Source: Bacillus sp. 123MFChir2 (GTDB lineage: Bacteria; Bacillota; Bacilli; Bacillales; Bacillaceae_G). Taken from it: 64,000 bases of DNA. Made by a program: the position numbers and the translations under genes. Numbering within the stretch: the stretch's first letter is position 1; each line of letters starts with the position of its first letter. The DNA lies in contig NZ_KB910935.1 of the NCBI RefSeq assembly GCF_000383235.1, forward strand, positions 1 to 64,000, in the 5' to 3' direction. The notes beneath the pieces are model-generated. The model was not told the origin of the DNA. It was given only the letters and a program-made list of their open reading frames with translations, and made no database searches. Positions 25,488 to 52,640 of this stretch are shown piece after piece.

Positions 25488-25551
25488 ATTATGAAAAAAA
25501 TATGACAAAAGAGCCATTGAATTTGCTTACGTAAACCTTACATTTTTGTAA
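25488..25551 (-). promoter_or_regulatory. TTACA-N4-TGTAA class promoter of the 25329 micropeptide
   Basis: On the reverse strand: TTACAAAAATGTAA (25551 to 25538), 6 nt, CGTAAG, 7 nt, AATGG, exactly 20 nt, then CATAAT (25493 to 25488). Spacing is identical to the promoters at 26500-26563, 27681-27744, 25667-25730, 26450-26513 and 52577-52640. Confidence 0.8.
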
Positions 25552-25556
25552 GATAG

Positions 25557-25662
25557 AAAAATAGTCCCACCTCTTTTGAGATGAGACCCACATGTAGTTG
25601 GTTGTTAATCCTTTTCATCACATTATTGATTCAAACAGAAAGATGTATTTCATTCTTTCTGC
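25557..25662 (-). ncRNA. Putative short transcript without a clear ORF
   Basis: A promoter of the micropeptide class (25667-25730, reverse strand) and a terminator (25564-25587 with a T-rich tail to 25556) bracket about 105 nt. No ORF with a properly spaced ribosome-binding site lies between. It may be a small RNA, or a micropeptide gene whose coding part was deleted. The -10 hexamer is TATACT, so transcription is plausible. Confidence 0.4.
25564..25587 (-). terminator. Terminator of the short transcript
   Basis: GTCTCATCTC pairs (with wobbles) with GAGGTGGGAC around AAAA, followed on the reverse strand by TATTTTT. Confidence 0.75.
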
Positions 25663-25666
25663 TTTT

Positions 25667-25730
25667 AGTATAGGTCATACTTGCAGCCGCAACTATCGAA
25701 TTACATTACACGTACCTTACAGTATTGTAA
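25667..25730 (-). promoter_or_regulatory. TTACA-N4-TGTAA class promoter upstream of the short transcript
   Basis: Reverse strand: TTACAATACTGTAA (25730 to 25717), 6 nt, TGTAAT, 7 nt, GATAG (25697 to 25693), 20 nt, TATACT (25672 to 25667). Same architecture as the other class members. Confidence 0.75.
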
Positions 25731-25825
25731 TATGTCGTAATCACTCAGCTATAAATTTCATTTAGAAGTTTGGCAAGGGGTATGATTCCAGTGAAAATAC
25801 GCCCCTTATTACCTATAGAATGTTA

Positions 25826-26009
25826 TTTTCATTTTTCAGCATATAGGTTGCTGCCATGAAGATAAAAATGGACCTACACCTTACCTTGCTACCTTTCTTT
25901 GTTTTAAAACTTTGTGCGTGGCAGAAAAAGGCCCTGACTGTTACTATGCACGGCCAGACGCTCTCGTCCTCCCCAAAAAAGAAAGGGGTTTTTATGTCAG
26001 TTTTTCATA
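25826..26009 (+). repeat. bcr1-type repeat, right end truncated
   Basis: Contains CATATAGGTTGCTGCCATGA, GTGCGTGGCAGAAAAAGGCC and CATGCACGGCCAGACGCTCT; the terminal AATTTGCATCTATATA is missing after GTCAGTTTTTCA. Confidence 0.75.
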
Positions 26010-26042
26010 GAGTGACTGAGTAGTTACACTATGTCTTTCTTT

Positions 26043-26408
26043 TTATTGTATCGTTAAAAGTTTCCCTCTCGCATTGAGCGGAATATCTTCTTTATCTATT
26101 TCAACTAACCTCTCAGCATAACGCCCTTTAGCGATTATTTCCAATGGTTCGTTTTGTTTTAACATTTTTTGAATCGTTTTTGTAATCTTCTGTTCCCGTC
26201 CATCTTCATCGTATCCAACAAACTCATATTCATACCAGCCATCCCCAATATGTTGACCAATACCTTTTACGACTGTGTAATACGCTTTCGTTTGATAAAA
26301 CGGATTATATTTATCAATTACTGGACCAAGCTTTGTTGGTAATAGTAAGACAACGACAGCAATACTAGCAAGTACCCCCAAAAATACACGTCTCTGTATT
26401 TTTCCCAC
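26043..26408 (-). CDS. YxeA family (DUF1093) protein
   Basis: 121-aa protein with an N-terminal hydrophobic segment (RVFLGVLASIAVVVLLLPT), then a small beta-rich domain with NPFYQTKAYYTVVKGIGQHI and GYDEDGREQKITKTI, which I recognise as the YxeA family. In B. subtilis yxeA lies in the yxdLM-yxeA operon controlled by the BceR-like regulator YxdJ. Start is GTG at 26408 with AAGGGGGG upstream. The promoter at 26450-26513 shares its box with the divergent micropeptide promoter, which fits control by a YxdJ-type regulator. Confidence 0.8.
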   Translation of the reverse strand: MGKIQRRVFLGVLASIAVVVLLLPTKLGPVIDKYNPFYQTKAYYTVVKGIGQHIGDGWYEYEFVGYDEDGREQKITKTIQKMLKQNEPLEIIAKGRYAERLVEIDKEDIPLNARGKLLTIQ

Positions 26409-26449
26409 TTTGGTTTCCCCCCTTGCACTTTATACGTAACCTTTCTCTC

Positions 26450-26513
26450 AGTTTAGAGAAAAAAAGAAACGCCTACCATTGAACTGCCTTACACTTCTAT
26501 TACAAAAATGTAA
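26450..26513 (-). promoter_or_regulatory. TTACA-N4-TGTAA class promoter of the yxeA-like gene
   Basis: Reverse strand: TTACATTTTTGTAA (26513 to 26500), 6 nt, TGTAAG, 7 nt, AATGG, 20 nt, TAAACT (26455 to 26450). The inverted repeat is shared with the divergent promoter at 26500-26563, but each side has its own TGTAAG and G/AATGG elements. Confidence 0.8.
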
Positions 26514-26563
26514 GCTTTCTGTAAGCTAACTCGATGGTTAAAGCGCCCCTGTTTTCGTACAAT
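26500..26563 (+). promoter_or_regulatory. TTACA-N4-TGTAA class promoter of the 26635 micropeptide
   Basis: TTACAAAAATGTAA (26500-26513), 6 nt, TGTAAG, 7 nt, GATGG (26533-26537), 20 nt, TACAAT (26558-26563). Confidence 0.85.
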
Positions 26564-26634
26564 GAAATCAGAAACAAGGCAGCAACAAATAAAAACCTGT
26601 TTCTACTAAATCAAACAAGTAAGGAGAGATTATA

Positions 26635-26739
26635 ATGGAAAGCCAAATGACTTTTAACAAATTTGATTACGCTGGGCTTGCTAGCGGCGCGGCTCTTCTT
26701 ACAGCATTCATTTACGTTGCCGCAGTGATTCTTATATAA
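26635..26739 (+). CDS. Hydrophobic micropeptide, K-x-D family (34 aa)
   Basis: ATG at 26635 with AAGGAGAGATTATA upstream; 34 codons. N-terminus MESQMTFNKFDYAGLASG, then one hydrophobic helix containing ALLTAFIYVAAVILI. It is a close relative of the peptide at 27887 and shares the N/T-K-x-D...G...LTA pattern with the tandem array at 12262-12536. Own promoter, about 70-nt leader and a terminator shared with plsC. Function unknown; a membrane-inserted regulatory or protective peptide seems possible. Confidence 0.85.
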   Translation: MESQMTFNKFDYAGLASGAALLTAFIYVAAVILI

Positions 26740-26776
26740 TTTTGTGTCCCCTTTCCCCTTATATAGATAAATTTGA

Positions 26777-26806
26777 AAAGACGACCTTCTATGCCAGGTC
26801 GTCTTT
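26777..26806. terminator. Bidirectional terminator between the micropeptide and plsC
   Basis: AAAAGACGACCT pairs with AGGTCGTCTTTT. Confidence 0.85.
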
Positions 26807-26817
26807 TCCTATTACTA

Positions 26818-27426
26818 TTATGCTGTTTTATCTTCTTGCAACGTTTCTTTTAACTGTGTAAACGTCTCATTTAATTTTTCTGTCATCAATTGCATCACTT
26901 CTTTACGATCCATCTGTGCTGACTGCTCCACTTGAATCGGGTCACCAAAAATTAATTGCGCTCTTTTTCCGCGAAACAATTCTTTTAAACTGTTAGGCCC
27001 AACGTATGCAGCCGGAACTAATGGAACATTAGAACGAAAGGCAATTGTAACTGCTCCAGCTTTCAATGAAGTCGCTTCTGCTGATCTCGTTCCACTCGGA
27101 AAAATCCCAACAACCTTTCCTTCTTTTAATAACCTAGATGGAATTTTCAGCGTACTCGGTCCCGGATTTTCACGGTCAACCGGAAATGCATTTACGCCCT
27201 TAAAAAACCAATTTCCAAATTTACTTTCAAACAATTCCTTTTTGGCCATATAGTAAATTTTTGTCGGTAACATCCCCGTTGCTAACATGACGACATCCAT
27301 CCAACTTGTATGAGTACAAGCTACCACATATGCTCCGTTTTGCGGTAATTTTTCTCTTCCATATACTTCCACTTTTCCAAATGTTTTAAATATATATTTC
27401 AACAGCCTTACAATGAATGTATACAT
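26818..27426 (-). CDS. plsC: 1-acyl-sn-glycerol-3-phosphate acyltransferase
   Basis: Membrane-associated enzyme that acylates lysophosphatidate to phosphatidate in phospholipid synthesis. 202 aa. Catalytic block CTHTSWMDVV (HX4D) near residue 37 and the substrate motif FPSGTRSAE near 109; KGVNAFPVDREN fits block II. Start ATG at 27426 with AAGGGAACAGGTCGA upstream. Single gene flanked by two micropeptide loci. Confidence 0.9.
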   Translation of the reverse strand: MYTFIVRLLKYIFKTFGKVEVYGREKLPQNGAYVVACTHTSWMDVVMLATGMLPTKIYYMAKKELFESKFGNWFFKGVNAFPVDRENPGPSTLKIPSRLLKEGKVVGIFPSGTRSAEATSLKAGAVTIAFRSNVPLVPAAYVGPNSLKELFRGKRAQLIFGDPIQVEQSAQMDRKEVMQLMTEKLNETFTQLKETLQEDKTA

Positions 27427-27468
27427 TCGACCTGTTCCCTTCTACAATTTAATTTTTATAACTGTATT

Positions 27469-27611
27469 TATATAAATTCAATTTGACTTTCCCACACACA
27501 AGTCGCCACCATGCTGAACAAAAAGTAGCCTATACTTGCCTTCTCTCTTTGTTTAAACATTGCCTGTGGCAAAAAAGGGTTTTATGCCAGTTTTTGAATT
27601 TGATTTATATA
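27469..27611 (+). repeat. bcr1-type repeat, internally shortened
   Basis: Begins TTATATAAATTCAATTTGAC and ends GAATTTGATTTATATATT; the CCACCGAAAAAG and CATGGCCAG parts are deleted (GTGGCAAAAAAGGGTTTTAT joins the halves). Confidence 0.7.
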
Positions 27612-27680
27612 TTTTTAATTATAACACTAAGTATTAATAGTTGGTAATAAAATTAAGTGACAATTTTTAAAATCTTTTCC

Positions 27681-27744
27681 TTACAAAACTGTAATTCTAA
27701 TGTAAGCTAACTCGATAGTTACTTTCTTATACCTGTCATATACT
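27681..27744 (+). promoter_or_regulatory. TTACA-N4-TGTAA class promoter of the 27887 micropeptide
   Basis: TTACAAAACTGTAA (27681-27694), 6 nt, TGTAAG, 7 nt, GATAG (27714-27718), 20 nt, TATACT (27739-27744). The leader from here to the ATG is about 135 nt, longer than in the sister gene. Confidence 0.85.
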
Positions 27745-27886
27745 TAAAGCAGCAACAGGGCAACACAAATACATCGAAAAGGCACTCACATACTAAACAT
27801 GGATAGCAACTACAATGCAGCTCGTGTTTCCCCCTACCGATGCAAAAATGGTTGCTACTACATTACATAAGTAAGGAGAGATAACT

Positions 27887-27988
27887 ATGAACAACATTAC
27901 CTTTAACAAATTTGATTACATGGGACTTGTAAGCGGTGCGGCTCTTCTTACAGCAGTTATTTACGCACTCGCACATGTCCTTGTATAA
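27887..27988 (+). CDS. Hydrophobic micropeptide, K-x-D family (33 aa)
   Basis: ATG at 27887 with AAGGAGAGATAACT upstream; 33 codons beginning MNNITFNKFDYMGLVSG with a helix containing ALLTAVIYALAHVLV. About 65 percent identical by eye to the peptide at 26635. Own promoter of the shared class, own terminator. Function unknown. Confidence 0.85.
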   Translation: MNNITFNKFDYMGLVSGAALLTAVIYALAHVLV

Positions 27989-28012
27989 CCCCCTTCCCCT
28001 TTATATAAATGA

Positions 28013-28050
28013 AAAGTGCTGCTTGTAATTCTACAAGCAGCACTTTTCAT
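28013..28050. terminator. Bidirectional terminator after the micropeptide
   Basis: AAAAGTGCTGCTTGTA pairs with TACAAGCAGCACTTTT; overlaps the end of the molybdate regulator gene. Confidence 0.85.
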
Positions 28051-28976
28051 TTTGTTTCATATATAATTTCACCTGTTTTACTTATATCATAACCACCAAT
28101 AGCACGCAATTCATTGTGAAATTCAGGAGACTGCAATACCTCTTTTACTGTTTCAATCAGCTCAATATTTTCTCCTGTCTTTAAAATCACTAAATCGTAA
28201 CGTTCTTGTATAAGTGGAACAAAATCTACATTTACAATTTGGGCTACTTTTTCTGTCCCTACTCCTACATCAGCCTTTCCATTTGCAACTTGAGAAGCAA
28301 TGCCAATATGATTTGATTCTTCCCAATTGTAACCACAAATGCCCATTTTCGATATTCCATTTATACGCAATTGTTCATCGACAAGAACACGAATACCAGA
28401 TCCTCTTTCCCTATTTACAAATTGAATGGATGGATTACATAAATCATTCCATGTCTTTATTTGTTTCGGATTTCCTTTTTTCACATAAAAACCTGATGTT
28501 CTTGATAATAAATTCATAACAATGCAAGGCTGTCCAACTAAAATTCGTTTTACATACGGAATGTTGTATTCTCCCGTATCCCCATCGAACAAATGAAGAC
28601 TAACAATGTCTCCTTTTCCTTGATACATCTGAACCAAACTTGTTAAACTCCCTTGATACGCCCGCAATATATTAGAAGCTTTCAAACGGCTCTCTACATG
28701 TTTCGTTAACATATCTAAAGATAAATCTTGTCCACTGATAATACAAGAATCAGATTTACTAGGCGGATTCATTACTTGTATAGATGAAGAAACTACCTGT
28801 ACTTTTCCTGTTTTCATCTCTGTAATATATTGCTCTAAATCACTTGCATCAACACGCATTTGCCTACCAACTCGATAAGAGGGCAATTCACCTTTTTTAA
28901 TCAAATCATACACTGTTAACTTCGATACTTTTAACCGCTTCGCTACTTCTTCTGTTGTGTAGGAATGATGATCCAT
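28047..28976 (-). CDS. Excisionase-type HTH plus periplasmic-binding-like domain regulator (molybdate)
   Basis: 309-aa cytoplasmic regulator. Residues 1-55 form a MerR/excisionase-type HTH (YTTEEVAKRLKVSKLTVYDL, RVGRQMRVDASDLEQYI); residues about 85-300 form a PBP-like ligand-binding domain without a signal peptide. It is divergent from modA, so it probably senses molybdate or tungstate and controls modAB. ATG at 28976 with GAGGAATCGGTTT upstream. The ligand is an inference from gene context and domain order. Confidence 0.8.
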   Translation of the reverse strand: MDHHSYTTEEVAKRLKVSKLTVYDLIKKGELPSYRVGRQMRVDASDLEQYITEMKTGKVQVVSSSIQVMNPPSKSDSCIISGQDLSLDMLTKHVESRLKASNILRAYQGSLTSLVQMYQGKGDIVSLHLFDGDTGEYNIPYVKRILVGQPCIVMNLLSRTSGFYVKKGNPKQIKTWNDLCNPSIQFVNRERGSGIRVLVDEQLRINGISKMGICGYNWEESNHIGIASQVANGKADVGVGTEKVAQIVNVDFVPLIQERYDLVILKTGENIELIETVKEVLQSPEFHNELRAIGGYDISKTGEIIYETK

Positions 28977-29077
28977 AAACCGATTCCTCGCTTTCTGCCT
29001 TCATTGTAACAAAAATAACCGTTTTGCTTCTATTTATTTTCACTATCGTGAGAAAAATCACAACATAACTAATTATA

Positions 29078-29113
29078 ACTATTTATAATTAAATATATTT
29101 AGTTATAATTAAA
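29078..29113. promoter_or_regulatory. Inverted-repeat operator in the modA/regulator intergenic region
   Basis: TAATTATAACTA (starting about 29079) and TAGTTATAATTA (ending about 29112) are exact inverse complements flanking an AT-rich centre just upstream of modA. A likely binding site for the divergent HTH-PBP regulator. Confidence 0.6.
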
Positions 29114-29141
29114 CTAGGGGGAAAAGAAGGGAGAAATGAAA

Positions 29142-29942
29142 ATGAACAAGTACATATTTCGCGTTACGTGCAGTATTTTACTCACACTACTTCTCGTAAT
29201 CAGTACGGGGTGTACAAGCACAAATAAACAAGAAAAAACAACAGCTAAAGAAGAAAAAATTGAACTTACCATTTCTGCAGCAGCTAGTTTACAAGATGCA
29301 TTAAAAGAGATTCAAACACAATATGAAAAGAAAGAACCAAATATAAAGCTCTCATTTAACTTCGACGGTTCTGGCAAGCTGCAACAGCAAATTGAACAAG
29401 GAGCTCCTGTTGATTTATTCTTCTCTGCCGCAGAAGATAAATTTCAAACACTCGTAACGAAAGGACTTATTGATCAGAAAGAAGGAAAAAATCTACTCGG
29501 CAATGAGCTAGTATTAGTTGTTCCTAAAGATAGTAATCTAAAAAATTTTCAATCGTTAAAAGATGAGCAAGTAACAAAAATCGCACTAGGTACACCTGAA
29601 TCCGTTCCAGCTGGAAAATACGCAAAAGAGGCGCTTACTCATTTAAATCTTTGGAACGACCTTCAAAATAAAGTTGTATACACAAAAGATGTGCGCCAAG
29701 TATTAACATACGTAGAAACAGGAAACGTGAATGCAGGGATTGTTTATAAAACAGACGCCCTTATTTCAAAAAGAGTAAAAATTACTACTACAGCACAGGC
29801 GAATTCACACGAACCAATCCGCTATCCATTAGGTATCGTAAAAGCAACGAAACATAAAAAAGAGGCAACTGCTTTTTATGAATATTTACAGTCTAAAGAC
29901 GCTATAGCCATCTTTAAAAAATATGGTTTTACAGTGCTGTAA
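29142..29942 (+). CDS. modA: Molybdate ABC transporter substrate-binding lipoprotein
   Basis: 266-aa exported lipoprotein that binds molybdate outside the membrane. Signal peptide with lipobox STGC, then the ModA pattern LTISAAASLQDALKEIQTQY, NFDGSGKLQQQIEQGAPVDL and GNVNAGIVYKTDA. I chose the ATG at 29142 (MNKYIF), 8 nt after AAGGGAG; the ATG two codons earlier is too close. modB follows after 8 nt. Confidence 0.92.
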   Translation: MNKYIFRVTCSILLTLLLVISTGCTSTNKQEKTTAKEEKIELTISAAASLQDALKEIQTQYEKKEPNIKLSFNFDGSGKLQQQIEQGAPVDLFFSAAEDKFQTLVTKGLIDQKEGKNLLGNELVLVVPKDSNLKNFQSLKDEQVTKIALGTPESVPAGKYAKEALTHLNLWNDLQNKVVYTKDVRQVLTYVETGNVNAGIVYKTDALISKRVKITTTAQANSHEPIRYPLGIVKATKHKKEATAFYEYLQSKDAIAIFKKYGFTVL

Positions 29943-29950
29943 TTGTAACT

Positions 29951-30625
29951 ATGATATTTGATACATTTTGGTCACCTATCATTCTTTCACTAAAAGTTGC
30001 TGCACTTTCTACGATCATTGTGATGGTATTCGGAACGATAATTGGCCGTGTTTTAGCCCGATCCTCGAAGCGCTATAAAATTTTATTAGAAACCATTTTT
30101 CTACTGCCGATGGTACTTCCGCCCACAGTAATAGGATTTTTCCTCATTATTATTTTTGGAAAAAACAGCCCCCTTGGTCAGTGGATTGAAACCTTGTTTA
30201 AACAATCGATTATGTTTACATCTTGGGCTGCTGTGATTGCTGCAACTGTAGTTGCATTTCCGCTTATGTACCAATCAGCGAAAACGGGCTTCATCATTGC
30301 CAATGAACAAATTGAAGACGGAGCTAGAGACCTCGGAGCAAATGAATTACAAGTGTTCTTACATGTAACATTACCACTCGCGTTCCCTTCTCTACTAGGC
30401 GGAATGATTTTAAGTTTCGTCCGCGCTCTAGGGGAATTTGGTGCAACGCTTATGTTCGCTGGTAATATTCCCGGTAAAACACAAACGATTCCAACCGCAA
30501 TTTATATGGCAATTGATGCAAGCAACATGCCACTTGCCTGGGCACTCGTTCTTACAACTGTCGGTATGTCAATTGTCTTTTTATTGCTCATTCAATTTAT
30601 CAATAAAAAAATAACATCTGTTTAA
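29951..30625 (+). CDS. modB: Molybdate ABC transporter permease
   Basis: 224-aa membrane permease with five or six helices. The EAA-type loop for ATPase contact is DGARDLGANELQVFLHVTLP, and RALGEFGATLMFAGNIPG is the hallmark of ModB/CysT permeases. It lies 8 nt after modA. No modC ATPase gene follows: a strong terminator comes directly after the stop codon. Confidence 0.92.
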   Translation: MIFDTFWSPIILSLKVAALSTIIVMVFGTIIGRVLARSSKRYKILLETIFLLPMVLPPTVIGFFLIIIFGKNSPLGQWIETLFKQSIMFTSWAAVIAATVVAFPLMYQSAKTGFIIANEQIEDGARDLGANELQVFLHVTLPLAFPSLLGGMILSFVRALGEFGATLMFAGNIPGKTQTIPTAIYMAIDASNMPLAWALVLTTVGMSIVFLLLIQFINKKITSV

Positions 30626-30655
30626 CAGTAGCTTTCGACAAAGCTACTGTTTTTT
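30625..30655 (+). terminator. Terminator after modB
   Basis: AACAGTAGCTTT pairs with AAAGCTACTGTT followed by TTTTAT. Confidence 0.85.
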
Positions 30656-30662
30656 ATATGAT

Positions 30663-30863
30663 GTAAATACAAATTGAAAAACAAACATAAACGCCCGTTT
30701 CTTTTTCAGATGAGCGAGAGAATCTGGCCATGCATAGAAGCGGTCAGGGCCTTTTCCTGCCACGTACGATGGTAAAACAAAGAGAGAAAGCGAGGGTGCG
30801 GTCACTTTGTTCTTTTACATAGCAACGACTTATATGTTGAAAAATCAAAATGGATGTATATAT
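30663..30863 (-). repeat. bcr1-type repeat, long copy, inverted
   Basis: Begins AAATACAAATTGAAAAACAA and contains GAGCGAGAGAATCTGGCCAT, CAGGGCCTTTTCCTGCCACG and CAACGACTTATATGTTGAAA. Confidence 0.8.
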
Positions 30864-30927
30864 TTCCCGCGAAATAAGATGAAAATATGCCTTCCTTGTA
30901 GAATGATAGAAGAAAAGGAGGAATTTC

Positions 30928-31416
30928 ATGTACAATCAAACACTTTGCTTTATAAAAAAAGGGAATGAAATATTAATGCTAAATCGAGAAAAATCACCGC
31001 TGCAAGGCTTGTGGAATGGTGTTGGTGGAAAAATGATAGAAACCGAAACACCAATGGCATGCATTCTACGTGAAATTGAAGAAGAGACAGGACTATATTT
31101 AACAGAGCAAGAAGTCACCTATAAAGGAACATTATCATGGACAATCGACAATACAAGTTCAAGTGGATTGTACCTGTTTACCACTAATCTCCCAGCTCAT
31201 ACTTCTTATCACACGCCGAAAAAAGTAGCTGAAGGTATTTTAGATTGGAAGCACATTTCTTGGATTTTATCTAACGAAAATAGAGGAATAAACTCTTTAA
31301 CAAAGTATTTTTTACCCACGGTTTTACAAGAAGAAGGCGTATATGACCATACTTCTGTTTTCCACAATAATCAGATTGTGCACTATGAACAAAGGGAACA
31401 TGTAAATGCAAAATAG
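30928..31416 (+). CDS. Nudix hydrolase (8-oxo-dGTP diphosphatase-like)
   Basis: 162-aa MutT-type Nudix protein. The Nudix box GX5EX7REUXEEXGU is complete in GGKMIETETPMACILREIEE followed by ETGL, at about residues 35-58. N-terminus resembles oxidised-nucleotide hydrolases (LNREKSPLQGLWNGVGG). Substrate not proven. ATG at 30928 with AAAAGGAGGAATTTC. Ends in a terminator. Confidence 0.85.
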   Translation: MYNQTLCFIKKGNEILMLNREKSPLQGLWNGVGGKMIETETPMACILREIEEETGLYLTEQEVTYKGTLSWTIDNTSSSGLYLFTTNLPAHTSYHTPKKVAEGILDWKHISWILSNENRGINSLTKYFLPTVLQEEGVYDHTSVFHNNQIVHYEQREHVNAK

Positions 31417-31438
31417 CCTCTTTAGCGGAGGCTATTTT
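31410..31438. terminator. Terminator between the Nudix and acetyltransferase genes
   Basis: AAATAGCCTC pairs with GAGGCTATTT, followed by TTC; serves both convergent genes. Confidence 0.8.
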
Positions 31439-31439
31439 T

Positions 31440-31982
31440 CTATATATTTCGGCAATACCGGTAAGATACGGCCGGTTCTTCTTCTGTACTTCCTTGATTC
31501 GGACGTTCAGATTGCTTTACAAATCCTTTTGCTTCATAAAAGGGAATTCCCTTTTCATTCCCCTCGGCAACCGACACCCACTGCTCTACAATCCCTTTTT
31601 CTTTTTGAATTTCTGTAAAATAATCTACTAACAATGTGCCGATTCCTTCTCTTCTTCGACTCGGATCTAAATAGAGGACAAAAATCTCTCCACAATTTTC
31701 ACCCGTTGTTCCTCCACCAATCGCCCCTACAACTTGCCCGTTTTCAAGTGCAACGAACCATCCATACCAATTTTCGTTATTCGTCAGTACTTCTTTATGA
31801 ATACGCTCATGATTATAGTATTCTTCAATGACACGATCGATATATTCCTGACTATGCAAACCTTCATATGTCGCTAGCCATCCATCTGTACAAACCTTGG
31901 CAATCCCTTCGACATGACTTATATCTGCTCTTACCACTTGAATCTTATTTGTTTTCTGTTCTTGCAATACATAACCTTCCAC
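31440..31982 (-). CDS. GNAT family N-acetyltransferase
   Basis: 180-aa acetyltransferase. The acetyl-CoA-binding motif A is visible as LYLDPSRRREGIGTLLVDYF near residue 105, preceded by the beta-strand GQVVGAIGGG. Substrate unknown. The start is uncertain: GTG at 31982 has AAAGGGG about 12 nt upstream; a nearby TTG is another option. Monocistronic. Confidence 0.8.
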   Translation of the reverse strand: MEGYVLQEQKTNKIQVVRADISHVEGIAKVCTDGWLATYEGLHSQEYIDRVIEEYYNHERIHKEVLTNNENWYGWFVALENGQVVGAIGGGTTGENCGEIFVLYLDPSRRREGIGTLLVDYFTEIQKEKGIVEQWVSVAEGNEKGIPFYEAKGFVKQSERPNQGSTEEEPAVSYRYCRNI

Positions 31983-33185: not shown

Positions 33186-33358
33186 ATATATAGATGCAAA
33201 TTGAAAAACTAACATAAAAACCCTTTTCTTTTTTGATGAGCGAGAGCAACTGGCCATGCATAGAGGTGGTCAGTTCCTTTTCCTGCCACATGCAAAGTTT
33301 AAAACAAAGATAGACAGCAAGTAGCGGCCATGTTTTGTTCTGCATAGCAACGACTGGT
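33186..33358 (-). repeat. bcr1-type repeat, long copy, inverted
   Basis: Begins TATATAGATGCAAATTGAAA and ends GCATAGCAACGACTGG. Nearly identical over long stretches to the direct copy at 25057-25262. A run of eight C follows at 33361, at the junction with the next mosaic piece. Confidence 0.85.
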
Positions 33359-42207: not shown

Positions 42208-42405
42208 ATATATAAATCCAATTTATTTTTTACATATAGATTGCTACCATGAAAAAAGGAACCTGCACTTGTTTGCTCTTTTGGGTTTTCGCTGCGCATG
42301 TGGCAGAAATAGGCCCCGACCAATTCTACGCATGGCCAGTTGCTCTCGCCCACCGAAAAAGAAAAGGGTTTTTATGTTAGGTTTTCAATTTGCATCTATA
42401 TATTT
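42208..42405 (+). repeat. bcr1-type repeat, long copy
   Basis: Begins TATATAAATCCAATTTATTT and ends CAATTTGCATCTATATATTT; contains GCATGTGGCAGAAATAGGCC and CATGGCCAGTTGCTCTCGCC. Confidence 0.85.
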
Positions 42406-43967: not shown

Positions 43968-44109
43968 TGTATATCCATTTTAATTTTCCGACATATAAGT
44001 CGCTGCTATGCAGAATACAAAATGACCGTTTCTATGCGTGGCCAGTTGCTCTTGCCCACCGAAAAAGAAAAGGGCTTTTATGTTAGGTTTTCAATTTGCA
44101 TCTATATAT
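43968..44109 (+). repeat. bcr1-type repeat, internally shortened
   Basis: Begins TATCCATTTTAATTTTCCGA, ends CAATTTGCATCTATATATGG. Middle segment is deleted as in the 12772-12926 copy. Confidence 0.8.
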
Positions 44110-44799: not shown

Positions 44800-45917
44800 T
44801 TAGTTTGTGGCAAGCAATTCTTCTAATCCTTTTTGTAAGATGTTCCGGCTCGCGTTATAGTCTCTATCCAATACCGTTCCACACTTTGTACAAATGTGAG
44901 TACGAATAGAGAGAGACTTCTTCACACGATTCCCACAAACAGAACAGTCTTGTGAAGTATACTTTGGTTCTACTTTGATGAGTACACCACCATGATTTTC
45001 GCATTTGTAAACAAGCATGTTTCGAAACATCCCCCACCCAGCATCAGAAATGGACTTCGATAAATTTCTATTTTTAACCATGTTACGAATGTTCAAATTT
45101 TCTACAGCGATAACGGAATACTCTTTTGCTAGATTGTAACTGAGTTTATGAAGAAAATCTCTGCGCTGGTTCGCTACTTTTTCATGTAGCTTGCGAACAC
45201 GCTCGACTTGTTTCATGAAGTTAGCAGAACCTTTTTTTTCTTAGAAAGTTTTTGCTGTGCTTTCTGTAGCTGTTTTTCTTTTTCACGGAGAAATCTAGGG
45301 TTTTCAAACTCTAAACCATTAGAAAGAACAGCATACTTATGTAGTCCCACGTCAATTCCTATCGCACGATTGGTATCGATATCAGATGGTACCACTTGTC
45401 TTTCGACACTGAAAATAGCGTACCATCTTTTCCCTTGACGTTTGAGGATTAGTTGCTTGATTGTTTCTTCGAGTGGTCTATGAAGTAGGATATCTATTTC
45501 TCCCAATTTTTTATTGTATAACTTACCGTTATCAGAAAAAGACATAGCATAGCGATGCTTTCCATTTGGTTTGAATCCAAATTGCGGAAACGTCATACTA
45601 TTGTAGTCTTTATACTTTTTCTGTTTTGGATACTTTGCATCTTTACAAAAGAAATGATCAAACGCTTTTTTCAGACGTATAAAAACTTCTTGCAAAGGCT
45701 GAGAAGGCATTTCTTTTAGAAAAGGATACGTCTTCTTGTCCAATGTAAGTTGTCTTTGCATATCATAACGATTGTAATTTTCTTTGTTTTCCTTATATTT
45801 CCGTTCTTTGTCTAGCAAGGCAGAATTGTAGGTTTGACGACAATATTGTAGCCAACGATCTAACATTTCTTTTTGTGCTTCTGTTGGAAAGATTTCATAT
45901 TTTTGATTCAACAACAT
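44800..45917 (-). pseudogene. tnpB: TnpB RNA-guided nuclease gene with a -1 frameshift in an A8 tract
   Basis: First part (45917-45213): LLNQKYEIFPTEAQKEMLDR to GIDVGLHKYAVLSNGL with the first catalytic Asp, ending KLSKKKKVLLTS. Second part (45216-44800) starts MKQVERVRKLHEKVANQRRD and carries AVENLNI (Glu), the zinc motif CSVCG...CTKCG and DRDYNASRNIL (Asp). The two join perfectly (KKKKGSANFMKQVER) if one A is added to the run of eight A at 45232-45239. All three RuvC residues are present overall. A sequencing error, true loss, or -1 slippage on A AAA AAG are the options. Confidence 0.85.
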
Positions 45918-45932
45918 TGTCATCACCTCCCA

Positions 45933-46482: not shown

Positions 46483-46484
46483 AA

Positions 46485-46512: not shown

Positions 46513-46525
46513 TTTTATTTATGCA

Positions 46526-47815
46526 TTATACGGCTTCCTTCGCCCCTGTTAATGCTTTTATATCAGAAACAGCCTCGGCATGCTTTGCTTCATCAAATTC
46601 ATTTTCACTCTTCGCAACAACAATTGTCGCAATCCCGTTTCCAATTAAGTTTACGATGGCTCTTCCTTCACTCATAAAGCGATCGACCCCAAGAAGTAAA
46701 GCTAATCCTTCTAAAGGAATAACCTTTAACGCAGCTAACGTAGACGCTAATACAATAAATCCACTTCCTGTCACACCTGCAGCACCTTTAGACGTTAACA
46801 TAAGTACTAAAATAATGGTAACTTGCTGTCCAATTGTTAAGTCGATACCAAATACTTGTGCTAAAAAGACAACTGCCATGGATAAATAAATAGATGTACC
46901 ATCAAGATTAAAGGAATAACCTGTTGGAATAACAAGACCAACAACGGATTTTGAACAGCCATATCGCTCCATCTTATTCATCATTCTTGGTAATACAGAT
47001 TCAGAAGAACTTGTTCCTAATACAATTAATATCTCGTCTCGAATGAACTTTAAATAATTCCATAAACTAAATCCATACATCTTACAAATAATATTTAAAA
47101 TAACAAAAACGAATAAGAACATCGTTACATATACCGACATCATTAATTTCCCAAGTGGTACAAGCGAAGCAAGTCCAAAGTGACCGATTGTATATGCCAT
47201 AGCACCAAATGCCCCGATCGGTGCTGCTTTCATTACATAGCCAATAATTTTAAAGAATACGTGTGAAAGTTTGTCTAAGAAATCAATGACTGAGTTTCCT
47301 TTTTCTCCAAGAGCCGCTAACCCTACACCAAATAAAATAGAAAAGAATAATACTTGTAAAATATCACCTTTCGCAAATGCATCAACCATATTAGACGGAA
47401 CGATATGGGTTACAAACTCAATCCAGTTAATACCATGTCCTCCGTTTTGCGTATACTTTGATACGTCTCCTTTTGCAAGCTCATTAAAGTTAAGGCCTTC
47501 TCCTGGCTTCATCACATTTACAACAATTAAACCAACAATAAGTGCAAAGGTTGTCACTACCTCAAAATAAATAAGAGCTTTTCCACCGACCTTACCAACC
47601 TTTTTCATATCTCCCATTTTGGCAATGCCGAGTACAATTGTTAAGAAAATAATCGGTGCGATTACCATTTTTACAGCATTGATAAATGTGTCGCCTATCG
47701 GCTTCATTTCTTTACCAACACTTGGCCAAAGTAATCCAACTAACACCCCAAGTACAATAGCCGCTAATACTTGAAAGGTTAAATTTTTAAAGAGTCGTTT
47801 CACCTTTCTTCTCAC
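46526..47815 (-). CDS. dctP: C4-dicarboxylate:H+ symporter (DAACS family)
   Basis: 429-aa membrane symporter. KRLFKNLTFQVLAAIVLGVL starts helix 1; LGTSSSESVLPRMM is the serine-rich reentrant loop; GYSFNLDGTSIYLSMAVVFL and GAAGVTGSGFIVLASTLAAL are the substrate-binding helices. The DctA/DctP type is supported by the adjacent dctS-dctR two-component pair and dctB. Imports succinate, fumarate and malate. ATG at 47815 follows a weak GGGGAGTGAGAAGAAAGGTG region. A cre-like site lies 45 nt upstream. Confidence 0.92.
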   Translation of the reverse strand: MRRKVKRLFKNLTFQVLAAIVLGVLVGLLWPSVGKEMKPIGDTFINAVKMVIAPIIFLTIVLGIAKMGDMKKVGKVGGKALIYFEVVTTFALIVGLIVVNVMKPGEGLNFNELAKGDVSKYTQNGGHGINWIEFVTHIVPSNMVDAFAKGDILQVLFFSILFGVGLAALGEKGNSVIDFLDKLSHVFFKIIGYVMKAAPIGAFGAMAYTIGHFGLASLVPLGKLMMSVYVTMFLFVFVILNIICKMYGFSLWNYLKFIRDEILIVLGTSSSESVLPRMMNKMERYGCSKSVVGLVIPTGYSFNLDGTSIYLSMAVVFLAQVFGIDLTIGQQVTIILVLMLTSKGAAGVTGSGFIVLASTLAALKVIPLEGLALLLGVDRFMSEGRAIVNLIGNGIATIVVAKSENEFDEAKHAEAVSDIKALTGAKEAV

Positions 47816-47859
47816 TCCCCTAATTTCTCTAAATTTTCCAGATGTTTATTTCTAACATA

Positions 47860-47874
47860 ATGATAGCGTTTACA
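47860..47874 (-). promoter_or_regulatory. Candidate CcpA cre site upstream of dctP
   Basis: ATGATAGCGTTTACA fits the cre consensus WTGNAANCGNWNNCW with one mismatch. It lies between dctR and dctP. Catabolite repression of dctP through CcpA is known in B. subtilis. Confidence 0.6.
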
Positions 47875-47925
47875 CGAAAAAGTGAGAAGTTTATGGTCAT
47901 AACGAATATTTTGTTCATTTTGGTC

Positions 47926-48624
47926 TTAACTTTTCGTTTCTCGAAACACATAACGATTAATTGGTCTTCCAACTCCGCCATACTGAACTGCCAAATGAAT
48001 GACACCTTTTTTTTCTAAATAATCTAAGTAACGACGAGCTGTCACTCTAGCTATTCCAATGGCACGCGCCACATCTTCAGCCGAACGAGGTTCTTCTTGC
48101 TGTTTTGCATACGTTACAATTTCATTTAATGTAAACTCATTTAAACCTTTTGGTAAATTGCTCAACGTTCTCTCCGAGCGCCCAGAATATAATAATAAAT
48201 CTAGCTGCTCCTGCGAAATAGATCCAGAATCTCTTAAACTTATTCTATATTGGCGATACTTCTCTAACGCTTGTTGGATGCGATGCAATTTAAAAGGTTT
48301 AATAATATAATCTATCGCTCCATTTTGCAGCATGAGTTTAATTGTTTCCCTATCTTTAGCAGCAGAAACAACAATTACATCCGTTTCTAATTGTTGTTTT
48401 CGAAATTCCTGCAATACTTGAATACCATCCTTTTTCGGCATAAAGATATCCAAAATAACAAGATCTGGATTCATTTTTTTTACAAAGCGAATCCCCTCCT
48501 CACCATTGCTGGCGATAGCAATTACTTGAAACCCCTTTACACTTTTTATAAACTCTTTATTTACTTCCTGAACCATTGGATCATCTTCTATTAGCACTAC
48601 TTTAAATTTCTCTTTATACGCCAT
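47926..48624 (-). CDS. dctR: Two-component response regulator DctR
   Basis: About 232 aa, CitB/DcuR type. Receiver VVLIEDDPMVQEVNKEFIKS with the phospho-acceptor Asp in LVILDIFMPKKDG, and a C-terminal HTH ending in RPINRYVFRE. Start ATG at 48624 (MAYKEKFKVVLIEDD) overlaps the end of dctS by 11 nt; the longer open frame upstream lies inside dctS. Activates dctP in response to dicarboxylates. Confidence 0.92.
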   Translation of the reverse strand: MAYKEKFKVVLIEDDPMVQEVNKEFIKSVKGFQVIAIASNGEEGIRFVKKMNPDLVILDIFMPKKDGIQVLQEFRKQQLETDVIVVSAAKDRETIKLMLQNGAIDYIIKPFKLHRIQQALEKYRQYRISLRDSGSISQEQLDLLLYSGRSERTLSNLPKGLNEFTLNEIVTYAKQQEEPRSAEDVARAIGIARVTARRYLDYLEKKGVIHLAVQYGGVGRPINRYVFRETKS

Positions 48625-50215
48625 ACAATTCCGCCTCCATCCCCATTGGAAAAGTAATGATAAAGCTAGTTCCTTCACCTTCAAAAGATGAAATTCTAAT
48701 TTCTCCTCTTCCTTTTTCAACAATTTGTTTTACTAGAAAAAGACCATAACCTGTCCCGTCACGTTTATTCACAGTAAACCCTTTTTCATATAGCCTTGGT
48801 AAATGTTCTTCTTGTATCCCGCATCCATTATCTTCAATTAAAATCGCGCACACATCTTCTGACTGCTCAATACTAATATCAATTCTTTTATTCGTTGCCT
48901 CAATTTGTTCAAATGACCCAAATGCGTTTTCTATTAAATTACCTAATAATACAACAAAATCATGGTGATCTAATTGATACGGAAAGGCCTCTAAATAACT
49001 ATTTTGATCAACATTCACTTGAATTCCGAGCTCTTTTCCTCTGCTTATTTTACTTAAAAGAAGCCCTGCAACGGCATCATTTTTAATTGTCTCATTTAAA
49101 AAGTTTGCTACGTTCTCCTGTTCTTCTGAAGTGTTATAGGCAAGTTGCAATGCCTTGTCAGCCTTACCGAGCTGAATTAAGCCTGCAATTGTATGAAGTT
49201 TATTCATATGCTCATGACTTTGCACACGCAGTGCCTCAACAAAGTTCTTCACCCCAGTTAATTCTTCCGCAAGCTTCGTTACCTCCGTACGATCTTGGAA
49301 AATTGCCACAGCTCCGATTAATTCATGATCCTTCTTAATCGGTATACGATTGCTTAAAATGACCTTGCCACTTACTTTTATCTCTTCATTATATACCGCT
49401 TGATTTTTCTCCACGATTTCCGGGAGCCTTGTATCCTGTAATATTTTACGAATAGGCTGTCCGACAACGTCTCCATTGACATGAAAAACTTGCTTCGCTT
49501 TCTCGTTAAAAACCGTAATCATTTCTTGATTATCAATGGCAATCACCCCTTCATTCATGGAATGAAAGGTCGCTGTCCTTTCTTCGAGTATTCTTTTAAT
49601 CTCATATGGTTCGAGCTGAAACATCTGCTTTTTTATATGATTAGCGAGCATTAACGAACCTATCAATCCTAGTATTAACATTAAGATGACTATGAAAAGA
49701 ATTTCTCCCTTTAATTCACTCATAATCTCAAAGAAGTTTGGTATTTTATTTCCTACAACAACAACGCCAATTTGGTTTAAATTTTGATCTTTAATGGGCA
49801 TAAAAGCTCGAATTAAAGTACCCATTTCTCCCTTTGCCTTTGAAAAATAAATATGTTCTGCAAACGCCGCCTCTTCATCTGCTCCTTTCGAACGTTTTCC
49901 AATCATTTCTTTCACGGGATGCGAATATCGGACTCGTTCCATATTCATGACGACAATATAATCTGTTTCATTAATGACTCTAATATTTTCAATCACAGAA
50001 TTTAATATCATCCATCCATTTTTTTCTTGAAGTGACTTCTTTACATCTGACATTTCTGCTACCGTTCGCGCTGTATTCATAGAACGAATTCTTAATTCTT
50101 TCTCTTCCTTTTGCTGAATATTGGCGACGATAATCCCGCCACCAATCATAAGTGAAACAATAACAACTGCATAAGAAAGAATCGTAATCTTCCAACGTAT
50201 TGGTAAATCCCTCAC
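48614..50215 (-). CDS. dctS: Sensor histidine kinase DctS (CitA/DcuS type)
   Basis: 533-aa membrane kinase: two helices (about 10-30 and 172-194) flank an extracytoplasmic PAS sensor domain, then a cytoplasmic PAS (VIAIDNQEMITVFNEKAKQV), the phospho-His motif QSHEHMNKLHTIAGLIQLGK and an ATPase domain (IEDNGCGIQEEHLPRLYEKG). I chose the GTG at 50215 (MRDLPIRWK) since AAAGGAG lies 8 nt upstream; the earlier GTG overlaps that site. Confidence 0.9.
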   Translation of the reverse strand: MRDLPIRWKITILSYAVVIVSLMIGGGIIVANIQQKEEKELRIRSMNTARTVAEMSDVKKSLQEKNGWMILNSVIENIRVINETDYIVVMNMERVRYSHPVKEMIGKRSKGADEEAAFAEHIYFSKAKGEMGTLIRAFMPIKDQNLNQIGVVVVGNKIPNFFEIMSELKGEILFIVILMLILGLIGSLMLANHIKKQMFQLEPYEIKRILEERTATFHSMNEGVIAIDNQEMITVFNEKAKQVFHVNGDVVGQPIRKILQDTRLPEIVEKNQAVYNEEIKVSGKVILSNRIPIKKDHELIGAVAIFQDRTEVTKLAEELTGVKNFVEALRVQSHEHMNKLHTIAGLIQLGKADKALQLAYNTSEEQENVANFLNETIKNDAVAGLLLSKISRGKELGIQVNVDQNSYLEAFPYQLDHHDFVVLLGNLIENAFGSFEQIEATNKRIDISIEQSEDVCAILIEDNGCGIQEEHLPRLYEKGFTVNKRDGTGYGLFLVKQIVEKGRGEIRISSFEGEGTSFIITFPMGMEAELYGV

Positions 50216-50279
50216 ACTTGGCACTCCTTTCCCCTAAAAGCATCTTTACGAATAGAAATCTTCTAGGTATGCTTACAAT

Positions 50280-50430
50280 AAAGTGAAACTTCCATCAGTG
50301 ACACATTTCTCACTGATGGTTAGTTGAACCAATCGGGCTTTTACGGACAGTTTTCTCCCACCTAACTTCCTTGCTTCTCTCTGAATCCTGGGGTGGGGGC
50401 TTACTGCCCGTTAATAGCGAGATAACTACT
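50280..50430 (+). repeat. GTGAAACTT-type repeat, long variant
   Basis: AAAGTGAAACTTCCATCAGT, an internal hairpin (ATCAGTGA with TCACTGAT), then GGGGGCTTACTGCCCGTTAA and TAGCGAGATAACT. About 150 bp between the outer motifs, longer than the other copies, as if a second piece is inserted. Confidence 0.6.
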
Positions 50431-50447
50431 TCAAAAGGAGAACGACG

Positions 50448-51515
50448 ATGAAAAAAGCAGCTACCTTTATACTCCTTTTCACCATTTCTATTGCAAACGC
50501 TTTATTTTTTTATTATCAGAGTCACCCTCCTCAAAATGAACTATCATATGACGATGACCAAGAAGGACTAAACGACCAAATCGTCTTTAAATTTAGTCAT
50601 GTTGTTGCAGAAAACACACCAAAGGGACTTGCTGCTAACAAACTTGCGGAACTCGTGAATGAAAAATCAAATGGTAAAATAAAAATAGAGGTCTTCCCTA
50701 ACGGAAGTTTACATTCTGATATAGAAGAATTTCGCGCTTTAAAATCCGGACAAGTACAAATGATTGCTCCTTCCACATCAAAACTCGGAACGTTCTCCCC
50801 TGAATGGGGTGTACTTGATTTACCATTTGCTTTTTCAAATTATGAAGCCTTACAAGAAGGCTTAAAAGGAAAAATTGGGGAACAATTACTTCAATCCTTA
50901 CAAAAAGATGGAATAAAAGGGCTTGCCCACTGGTCCAACGGCTTTAAGCAACTCACGTCAAACAAAGGACCTATTTATACACCAAAAGATATACAAGGAC
51001 AATCTTTTCGCATTATGCAAAGTAATGTCATCCAATCCCAATTCGATTTATTAAAGGTTAAATCGCATCAAGATTCATTCAATTCTACATATCAATTAAT
51101 TGAATCAGGAAAAGTTGACGGTGAAGAAAATACCATTTCAAATATCTACTCTAAAAAATTCTATAACGTTCAAAACTATTTGACAATTAGTAATCATGGA
51201 TATTTAGGATACGTTGTCATGATGGATCAAAAAACTTGGAATCAACAAACAAAAAAAACAAAGCAAATATTAGCGGAAGCCATGCAAGAAACTACCGCTT
51301 GGAATGATCAACAAGCCGCACAAATAAATAAAGAACAACTTGAACTTATTAAACAAAATTCATCGATTCAGATTCATGAACTAAACAATGAACAACGAAA
51401 AGATTGGGAAACCGCACTATTACCTATATATGATAAACTTGCTCCTACGATTGGAGAAGATTTGGTTGAAGAGTTGAAGGAATTACAGCGAAAATATCGT
51501 GTGCAGGGGTCATAA
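50448..51515 (+). CDS. dctB: Dicarboxylate-binding protein DctB (DctP-type TRAP solute receptor fold)
   Basis: 355-aa exported solute-binding protein: N-terminal hydrophobic anchor (ATFILLFTISIANALFFYY), then the TRAP-SBP pattern FKFSHVVAENTPKGLAANKL, EFRALKSGQVQMIAPSTSKL and FRIMQSNVIQSQFDLLKVKS. No TRAP membrane subunits are adjacent. In B. subtilis DctB works with DctS as a co-sensor. ATG at 50448 with AAAAGGAGAACGACG. Divergent from dctS. Confidence 0.9.
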   Translation: MKKAATFILLFTISIANALFFYYQSHPPQNELSYDDDQEGLNDQIVFKFSHVVAENTPKGLAANKLAELVNEKSNGKIKIEVFPNGSLHSDIEEFRALKSGQVQMIAPSTSKLGTFSPEWGVLDLPFAFSNYEALQEGLKGKIGEQLLQSLQKDGIKGLAHWSNGFKQLTSNKGPIYTPKDIQGQSFRIMQSNVIQSQFDLLKVKSHQDSFNSTYQLIESGKVDGEENTISNIYSKKFYNVQNYLTISNHGYLGYVVMMDQKTWNQQTKKTKQILAEAMQETTAWNDQQAAQINKEQLELIKQNSSIQIHELNNEQRKDWETALLPIYDKLAPTIGEDLVEELKELQRKYRVQGS

Positions 51516-51537
51516 TTGCCAAACTAGTAAAATAAAG

Positions 51538-51577
51538 AATCCGCCCTTTCTTTCACTGACTCAAGAAAGGACGGATT
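51538..51577. terminator. Terminator between dctB and the CPBP protease gene
   Basis: AATCCGCCCTTTCTT pairs with AAGAAAGGACGGATT (one mismatch). Confidence 0.85.
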
Positions 51578-51608
51578 AAACTTATATCGATAGATTAGTT
51601 TGATAATC

Positions 51609-52526
51609 CTAGTTGCTTATATCAATATTTTTCATGAAATACCATTTTGGATTTTTTTTGTGCAATTTTATTAAATAATATACACAGAAAACAAGCGCTA
51701 TTGCTGAGATGATAAGATAAGCCTTCTCCTGATAAGCCCCCATGTTAGCATTAGCATAGAATAAATGCTCGCTCCCCATACTGTCGTCATTAAATTTAAA
51801 CAGCGTCTCAGATGCGTTATAAACCCCATGAATTATCATGCTTTTATATATGGAATTACTATCAACAGCAACTAAAAATAATAACAATCCCAGACAAAGA
51901 GCATACGTCAAAAATATTGGACTAAATCCCCCAAAGGAATGCATGAGAGAAAATAGAATAGAAGTGAAAAGAAAAACAAATAAAAGATTGTATTTTTTCA
52001 CGAGCCATTTCGTTAAAAACCCTCTAAAAACAAGTTCCTCTGCGCCGCCCTGGATAAGATAAGTAACAAAACATAATAAAACATATGGATAAACATTAAA
52101 ATTAGAGATCTGTTCTGTAAATCCGATTTGAACATTAAACATAAGAGCGTAAATATAAATACCTACAAAATTGATAAACAGACCAATTGCTATCCCACTA
52201 AATATATTCGTCATAACCTTATGTGACCGGTCTCTTGTAAATCCTATATTCGAAATCGGGTTCTTAAATATGTAAACATACACTAACAACAGCATCCATA
52301 TTCCAATAAAAGTACGAATGACTCCTCCAAAACGATATGCAGAACTGGTTTTTGGAATTAGATCTTGGATAGATTGAAGCGACATGCTCACTATTGCTTG
52401 CGTTCCATAAAAGAGAGCCATTATACCAATACTGCATAGTAGAAGATATACCAAACTAGGTATTTTATCGACAAATTTATTACCATTTTTGCCTACTTTA
52501 CTTTTAAACATCCATAAATTTTCCAC
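51609..52526 (-). CDS. CPBP (Abi/CAAX-type) intramembrane metalloprotease
   Basis: 305-aa protein with about eight hydrophobic helices. The CPBP motifs are present: GGAEELVFRGFLTKWL (EExxxR) near residue 164, LMHSFGGF (His) near 198, and IIHGVYNASE (HxxxN) near 236. Such proteases act in bacteriocin self-immunity, peptide maturation or pheromone release. Start is GTG at 52526 with AGGGAG 8 nt upstream. Its promoter is of the micropeptide class, and it is divergent from the SCIFF peptide gene. Confidence 0.88.
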   Translation of the reverse strand: MENLWMFKSKVGKNGNKFVDKIPSLVYLLLCSIGIMALFYGTQAIVSMSLQSIQDLIPKTSSAYRFGGVIRTFIGIWMLLLVYVYIFKNPISNIGFTRDRSHKVMTNIFSGIAIGLFINFVGIYIYALMFNVQIGFTEQISNFNVYPYVLLCFVTYLIQGGAEELVFRGFLTKWLVKKYNLLFVFLFTSILFSLMHSFGGFSPIFLTYALCLGLLLFLVAVDSNSIYKSMIIHGVYNASETLFKFNDDSMGSEHLFYANANMGAYQEKAYLIISAIALVFCVYYLIKLHKKNPKWYFMKNIDISN

Positions 52527-52576
52527 ACATTAATCTCCCTATAAATTATTTTTTAATTATTACTTCATAAGCTTTT

Positions 52577-52640
52577 ATTATCAGATTGAAATAACAAATA
52601 AGCTATCTAATAACCTTACATAAAGATGACAGTTTTGTAA
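52577..52640 (-). promoter_or_regulatory. TTACA-N4-TGTAA class promoter of the CPBP protease gene
   Basis: Reverse strand: TTACAAAACTGTCA (52640 to 52627), 6 nt, TGTAAG, 7 nt, GATAG (52607 to 52603), 20 nt, GATAAT (52582 to 52577). One mismatch in the inverted repeat; otherwise the architecture is that of the micropeptide promoters. Confidence 0.8.

Follow-up and report, generated by a model that had tools for sequence, protein, structure and literature searches.

Six promoters of probable BceR/PsdR/YxdJ type before micropeptides, a YxeA-family gene and other candidate membrane-protection outputs in Bacillus sp. 123MFChir2

The BceR box has the form TNACA-N4-TGTAA, and 11 bp is the usual step for regulators of the OmpR family. 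The present analysis concerns six promoters built on boxes of this kind in the first 64,000 nucleotides (nt) of contig NZ_KB910935.1 of Bacillus sp. 123MFChir2, hereafter the window. The promoters precede the genes of three micropeptides, a YxeA-family protein and a CPBP protein, as well as a predicted short transcript without a convincing open reading frame (ORF). As judged from sequence, they very probably belong to the class activated by OmpR-family regulators of the BceR/PsdR/YxdJ type, with membrane protection as the proposed output.

In the closest described systems, BceAB-like transporters are the peptide sensors of the modules (PMC10858260, PMC12484072). The YxdJK-YxdLM-YxeA system is linked to LL-37 (PMC7438565, PMC3968067), and in Lactococcus lactis a Bce-like module appears to be modulated by YsaD, a YxeA-like protein (PMC7438565). 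The GraR orthologues VirR and BceR bind to inverted repeats; when the GraR repeat carries point mutations, expression falls strongly and colistin no longer induces it (PMC3128592). The DUF3948 peptides, two of which are encoded in the window, are described as having no known function; in B. cereus G9241 five adjacent DUF3948 copies show the largest rise upon loss of plasmid pBCX01 at 37 C (PMC10196113).

The six promoters, read from the letters of the window, have one fixed layout. Counted from the first T of TTACA (position 0), TTACA occupies positions 0-4, TGTAA 9-13, TGTAAG 20-25, RATRG 33-37 and the -10 hexamer 58-63. The core pattern of 38 nt is TTACA-N4-TGTAA-N6-TGTAAG-N7-RATRG, from which 20 nt lead to the -10. 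Three sites fit this pattern exactly: the promoters of DUF3948 micropeptide 1 (26500..26563, + strand, -10 TACAAT), of the YxeA-family gene (26450..26513, - strand, TAAACT) and of DUF3948 micropeptide 2 (27681..27744, + strand, TATACT). The other three have one mismatch each: CGTAAG in the promoter of a 36-amino acid (aa) peptide (25488..25551, - strand, -10 CATAAT), TGTAAT in that of the ORF-less transcript (25667..25730, - strand, TATACT) and TGTCA in that of the CPBP gene (52577..52640, - strand, GATAAT). The -10 at +58 agrees with TATAAT at four or more of the six bases in every site, and with the stricter TANNNT in four of the six. The inverted repeat lies upstream of the -35 and is exact in five sites, the sixth being the one with TGTCA.

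An earlier sequence-only reading of this DNA had described six promoters of identical layout with a BceR-type box. Its coordinates, spacing, -10 position and box form stand, whereas the elements are not all exact, as just listed, and the boxes number five. The promoters that start at 26513 (- strand) and at 26500 (+ strand) use one and the same palindrome of 14 nt, TTACAAAAATGTAA (26500..26513), so that five boxes serve six promoters.

The bare inverted repeat is much weaker evidence than the full geometry, which carries the signal. With at most one mismatch, TTACA-N4-TGTAA occurs 12 times in the window against 5.45 expected, and none of 100 shuffles reaches 12. An exact scan of genome contigs with the 38-nt pattern provided a first foreign set of at least 121 sites on at least 120 loci (L001-L120). 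Counts over foreign sites, here and below, are among the matches listed. The titles of this set are nearly all Firmicutes, the two exceptions being metagenome-assembled genomes (MAGs) labelled Bacteroidales (L040) and Collinsella (L090). A matrix of 65 columns was built from 120 of the sites; each distinct sequence entered it a single time, and the query-fixed columns were softened with 15% background. This matrix, made from other genomes, gives the window promoters 45.2 bits (26500, + strand, rightwards from the common palindrome), 43.8 (ORF-less transcript), 43.0 (36-aa peptide), 41.4 (DUF3948 micropeptide 2), 38.7 (CPBP gene) and 35.9 (YxeA-family gene, leftwards from the common palindrome and the lowest of the six). 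The next-best place in the window scores 3.2 bits, and the maximum over 200 second-order random windows is 15.7.

The position of the -10, which was absent from the query, is also conserved: TANNNT stands exactly at +58 in 106 of the 119 first-set sites with enough downstream sequence. At the foreign sites TGTAAG (from 9), TGTAAG (from 20) and a weak repeat from 31 succeed each other in 11-bp steps, and the first TGTAAG repeat has its inverted counterpart in the TTACA upstream. When one mismatch is allowed, the 38-nt pattern is found at 71 places in 59 of 397 genomes, and the reversed pattern, used as a control, at 0. These 397 genomes belong to the same order as Bacillus sonorensis (genome G001, which contains L026), presumably the Bacillales. 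A motif at chance frequency before unrelated genes, which the sequence-only reading had named as evidence that would tell against it, is not what these counts show. In viral contigs the pattern has a single match (L128).

The scan of this order (loci within L121-L195) provided a second set of 72 sites, of which 66 remain after dropping six that repeat the first set. Where the third half-site lacks TGA, TANNNT lies at +58 in 21 of 28 sites; where it reads TGAAAG (38 sites), TANNNT mostly lies one base further, at +59 (26 sites), and otherwise at +58 (12 sites). The position of the -10 thus differs with the third half-site, which defines two spacing sub-classes, and the window sites belong to the first one (+58). 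No genome among the 397 has more than four sites, against six in the 64-kb window, five of them within 2.3 kb; this comparison of density is loose, since no genome of the group to which the window belongs was found in the sample, and since the preferred box differs between clades.

The genes behind the promoter in other genomes bear on its function. Both foreign sets merge into 187 distinct sites, and the first gene was taken to be the longest ORF with its start no more than 350 nt past the -10. At 121 of the 187 sites this gene encodes a BceA-like ATP-binding cassette (ABC) ATPase, defined by a phmmer score above 40 against the L103 protein, a threshold that other ABC ATPases could pass, yet the printed N-termini are alike. 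Six sites have no ORF of 20 aa in the available DNA. Of the other 60 first genes, two short BceA fragments (L017 and L029) were left out and 58 were scanned with Pfam, with matches to 32 families in all. Among them are PAF-AH-like hydrolases (9), DUF1093/YxeA proteins (9), YccF (6), Transgly (5), BacA/UppP (2) and PAP2 (2); single matches include an FtsX-type permease and a response regulator, among others. The YxeA-family first genes include, by sequence, those of two named Bacillus species (L026 and L113). YxeA, Transgly, BacA/UppP and PAP2 as first genes suit envelope and bacitracin-type functions.

The loci themselves point in the same direction. For 47 of the 121 first-set sites, the locus (at most 8 kb) matches BceA, BceB, the kinase and the regulator of L103, and 60 of the 121 (47+8+4+1) are on a locus matching its OmpR-type regulator. 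These matches (E below 1e-5 against single L103 proteins) are loose, as other ABC ATPases, kinases and OmpR-type regulators can pass, and the first-gene counts are cleaner. The L103 regulator, encoded upstream of the BceA site, has as its closest PDB entries 5dcl and 5dcm, titled 'PhoB family transcriptional regulator' and taken here to be the lantibiotic-resistance regulator NsrR. NsrR is the subject of PMC4773095.

By sequence and by genomic company, the six window promoters are therefore members of the class that stands before BceA-like genes in other genomes, with the full geometry in common, including the position of the -10. The assignment to the BceR/PsdR/YxdJ class made in the sequence-only reading gains its support from these BceA-like and YxeA first genes. 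Promoters of this kind were known before; the counts show that their geometry is general. New, as far as the literature search reaches, are the density of sites, the two-way promoter and the outputs, namely the two micropeptides of the DUF3948 family, the 36-aa peptide, the CPBP protein and the ORF-less transcript of about 100 nt.

Several observations weigh against this assignment. The first foreign set is a convenience sample that includes several related MAGs, and not a census. At 27 of its 121 sites the locus matches none of BceA, BceB, kinase and regulator, and the PAF-AH-like hydrolases (9 of 58) and YccF proteins (6 of 58) have no obvious antibiotic link. No relative of the window's YxeA was found in the genome contigs searched. 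DUF3948 has one match in the 397 genomes, which is borderline (L127, 24.7 bits), and the 3.1 kb of sequence available at that locus contain no TTACA-N4-TGTAA box. Genomes of the window's own group, to judge by DUF3948 and the gene content probably the B. cereus group, were not found in the searches, so the sites counted and compared are those of other groups. The published core of the ApsR/PsdR palindrome, TTACnA-N4-GTnAG, fits letter for letter, by eye, at three of the six boxes (26500 on the + strand, 25551 and 25730 on the - strand) and fails at the other three (PMC10858260). In the one report on DUF3948 expression that was found, the rise follows plasmid loss, which is no peptide-antibiotic signal (PMC10196113). 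Finally, none of the 56 window ORFs scanned, out of 94 of at least 80 aa, encodes an OmpR-type regulator.

This last result agrees, as far as the scan reaches, with the earlier reading, which had placed the regulator outside the window. Receiver domains occur in two of the 56 ORFs, joined to an output domain of LuxR type in one and of DpiA type in the other. A Bce-type detoxification module, in which regulator, kinase and BceAB transporter stand together, was not found in the window, which is consequently not such a module itself; only its promoters would be targets of one.

The same missing regulator is a point in favor of a different OmpR-family system, one that would use the Bce-type box and respond to another signal, such as heat, growth phase or a plasmid-encoded regulator, with outputs that are no peptide-antibiotic response. 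This is unlikely, because BceA-like genes dominate the foreign sites (121 of 187), and the effect of plasmid loss may itself act through the envelope.

WalR (YycF) is an even less probable owner of the sites, and can be considered very improbable. WalR is of the OmpR family, is active at the envelope and binds direct repeats TGTWAH-N5-TGTWAH. The step of 11 bp is the same in TGTAAG-N5-TGTAAG, and of the seven TGTWAN-N5-TGTWAN repeats that the window contains, four belong to the promoter class. On the other hand, the WalR consensus excludes G at the sixth base, and G is present in 97 of 121 first repeats, the second one being fixed by the query. The window sites do not carry the TGTWAH-N5-TGTWAH form that marks the WalR regulon, and two of the six depart even from the looser version with TGTWAN. 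Neither the TTACA half upstream nor a -10 at this distance belongs to the WalR pattern, and both are absent from the other three repeats of the window. The foreign first genes also differ from those expected of WalR: they encode BceA-like ATPases, YxeA, UppP and others, and no expected wall-hydrolase family is present among 25 of the 32 first-gene families. Chance or duplication in AT-rich sequence, to which the probable duplication of two of the six promoters with their genes and the palindrome common to two promoters could be credited, is practically dismissed, since the foreign matrix still isolates all six sites and the reversed control is empty in 397 genomes.

The assignment to the BceR/PsdR/YxdJ class thus preferred, the genes of the window can be considered as its outputs. 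DUF3948 micropeptide 1 (26635..26739, + strand) has 34 aa with one hydrophobic stretch and matches PF13134 with E 4.2e-10 and 39.6 bits, against a cut-off of 25. Micropeptide 2 (27887..27988, + strand) has 33 aa and matches the same family with E 5.3e-13 and 48.9 bits. Both have TAAGGAGAG upstream, and neither has a match in NCBIfam. The two copies differ by 3 synonymous and 9 non-synonymous codon changes in 31 codons, stop included (6, 5 and 10 changes by codon position). Identity is 83% between their promoters (41 nt compared) and 77% between the genes (93 nt compared); the pair therefore probably arose by duplication, and the two sites are not independent.

The third micropeptide is a hydrophobic peptide of 36 aa (25329..25439, - strand). 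Its ORF is preceded by a Shine-Dalgarno (SD)-like AGAAGGGAG and followed by a predicted intrinsic terminator (25294..25319, - strand); it matches 0 Pfam families and so is not a DUF3948 member by the cut-off. The YxeA-family (DUF1093) protein of 121 aa (26043..26408, - strand) matches PF06486 with E 1.9e-11 and 44.8 bits (cut-off 26.3), and TIGR01655 with 52.2 bits (29.65). The predicted CPBP (Rce1-like) intramembrane protease homologue has 305 aa (51609..52526, - strand) and matches PF02517 with E 3.5e-15 and 56.5 bits (cut-off 22.4); three NCBIfam CPBP models also match it, below their cut-offs. An SD-like stretch precedes each window ORF of the set, by eye.

The transcript expected from the promoter at 25730 (- strand) has no convincing ORF by eye, its internal ORFs lacking a clear SD. 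It is predicted to have about 100 nt with two hairpins (25556..25661, - strand; fold -26.9 kcal/mol, z -2.95). As good a fold was obtained for 2 of 200 shuffles, and one of the two main hairpins is the terminator (25588-25563). Rfam has no match at the gathering score in the window, and seven weak matches at 24900-28600 remain below the family thresholds. Among the outputs named in the sequence-only reading, the YxeA-family protein, the CPBP protein and two of the three micropeptides thus have Pfam matches above the cut-off, the YxeA-family protein also one in NCBIfam, and the 36-aa ORF has the SD-like stretch and the terminator.

The window's YxeA has no match in viral contigs and, among plasmids, matches only nine records (Enterococcus, Staphylococcus and Lactococcus, 32-37% identity). 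The DUF3948 peptide has no match in plasmids, and neither plasmids nor phages match the DUF3948 gene taken together with its divergent promoter region. Short hydrophobic ORFs stand behind the promoter at foreign sites as well (L066, 71 aa; L081, 68 aa; L076, 54 aa; L191, 46 aa; L168, 42 aa), and the window may therefore not be alone in having small proteins as output.

The palindrome at 26500-26513 ties the YxeA-family gene to a DUF3948 peptide. Foreign sites score high in the forward direction by construction, hence only the reverse scores are informative: the best one is 14.7 bits, against 35.9 in the window, among the 186 of 187 sites with room for the comparison. The arrangement of one palindrome serving both directions is thus found at 0 of 186 foreign sites. 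It offers a simple natural test, with one regulator-binding palindrome and two start sites.

In the mechanism proposed, which comprises the inducing signal, phosphorylation, binding and the function of the micropeptides, a Bce-type sensor encoded elsewhere in the genome (an ABC transporter with a short histidine kinase) would detect a peptide antibiotic at the membrane and phosphorylate its response regulator. Then, a regulator dimer would occupy the TTACA-N4-TGTAA palindrome, and further subunits would be placed on the TGTAAG repeat and on the weak repeat around RATRG, 11 bp per step. The downstream subunits, lying beside a poor -35 region, would recruit RNA polymerase to the -10 at +58. The palindrome at 26500-26513 would fire both ways, so that YxeA and a DUF3948 peptide would be made together. 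The output would be a membrane-protection set of two single-helix DUF3948 micropeptides, the 36-aa hydrophobic peptide, the YxeA-family protein, the CPBP protein and the short RNA.

The best guess for the micropeptides, by analogy with YsaD, is that they may be small modulators in the membrane, acting either on the Bce sensor-transporter or on the properties of the membrane itself. The wider proposal is somewhat favored over its opposite: that in this bacterial group the Bce-type response extends to single-helix micropeptides (DUF3948 and the 36-aa orphan) and to a small RNA through dense promoter copies, one of them two-way. The micropeptides would then serve Bce sensing as effectors or in feedback, a role not described before. 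A Bce-type promoter gives DUF3948 a testable role, in the defense against membrane- or lipid-II-directed peptides. The promoter model (palindrome, 11-bp repeats and -10 at +58, mostly +59 in the TGAAAG sub-class) can also be used to find Bce-type regulons in Firmicutes, and it reaches the stand-alone targets that are missed by looking beside bceAB.

Two groups of first genes in other genomes deserve a separate description. At ten Paenibacillus loci (L035, L039, L049, L062, L065, L072, L079, L097, L106 and L120) the gene behind the promoter encodes a protein of about 500 aa whose N-terminus is the same throughout, and a PAF-acetylhydrolase match was found in nine members of the scanned first-gene set; this PAF-AH-like protein is a possible unstudied member of the Bce-type response. 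In six Firmicutes MAGs (L024, L077, L093, L098, L099 and L100; by title or name five clostridial and one labelled Erysipelotrichaceae), a YccF-family inner-membrane protein starts 130-146 nt past the -10.

In the window, the CPBP gene is divergent from a six-cysteine SCIFF ranthipeptide with its radical S-adenosylmethionine maturase (52895-54565, + strand; TIGR03973 78.6 bits against a cut-off of 50, TIGR03974 748 bits against 425). A PAP2-superfamily protein is encoded nearby (54631-55236, - strand); in two other genomes the promoter class stands before PAP2 genes, but the matrix scan places no such site before this one. An IS605 OrfB/TnpB-like gene is split over two ORFs (44800-45216 and 45213-45926, - strand), the downstream one with a Cas12f1-like TNB domain. 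One repeat occurs on both strands in about ten whole or partial copies of about 70-170 nt each, with 74-94% identity to the first of them, at 25085-25255, 25885-26007, 27512-27602, 11927-11995, 12849-12919, 30667-30838, 33193-33353, 42296-42396, 44023-44102 and 59479-59640. The repeat, with no Rfam match at the gathering score, may belong to a repeat family of the B. cereus group. In B. cereus ATCC 14579, BC0223 and BC0227 respond to enterocin AS-48 by induction (PMC2774856); their identification with window genes, counted from a locus tag, is unsupported and was not used. BC0235 is YdaL and BC0244 is AppD/OppD (PMC9912610), neither of which was recognised among the window translations read, no dedicated search for them having been made. 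No BC02 locus tags were found in PMC3169574.

Compared with the known systems, the window resembles the BceR-type systems of B. subtilis in the TNACA-N4-TGTAA kind of box and in a YxeA-family target, the B. subtilis promoters themselves lying outside the comparison. It differs from them in that its targets are stand-alone micropeptides, a CPBP gene and an RNA, in that one palindrome serves two promoters, and in that a Bce transporter or regulator was not found in it. In the YsaDCB/TCS-G system of L. lactis, likewise, a Bce-like regulator controls a secreted peptide of the YxeA family (TIGR01655); its gene is part of the transporter operon, whereas the YxeA-family gene of the window is alone and divergent from a DUF3948 gene (PMC7438565). 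The GraR operator of Staphylococcus aureus has in common with the window sites an inverted repeat upstream of the -35, a BceR/VirR-orthologous regulator and several non-transporter targets. Its consensus, however, is ACAAA TTTGT, and a search of that study for significant direct repeats upstream of mprF, vraFG and dlt was unsuccessful (PMC3128592). The core of the ApsR/PsdR consensus of Lacticaseibacillus paracasei, AnnTTACnAnnnnGTnAG, corresponds to the window palindrome, and the promoters named there are PderA, PmprF, PdltA and PpsdA (PMC10858260). The DUF3948 cluster of B. cereus G9241 is of the same family as the micropeptides of the window and also consists of adjacent copies, with five copies there and a response to plasmid loss (PMC10196113).

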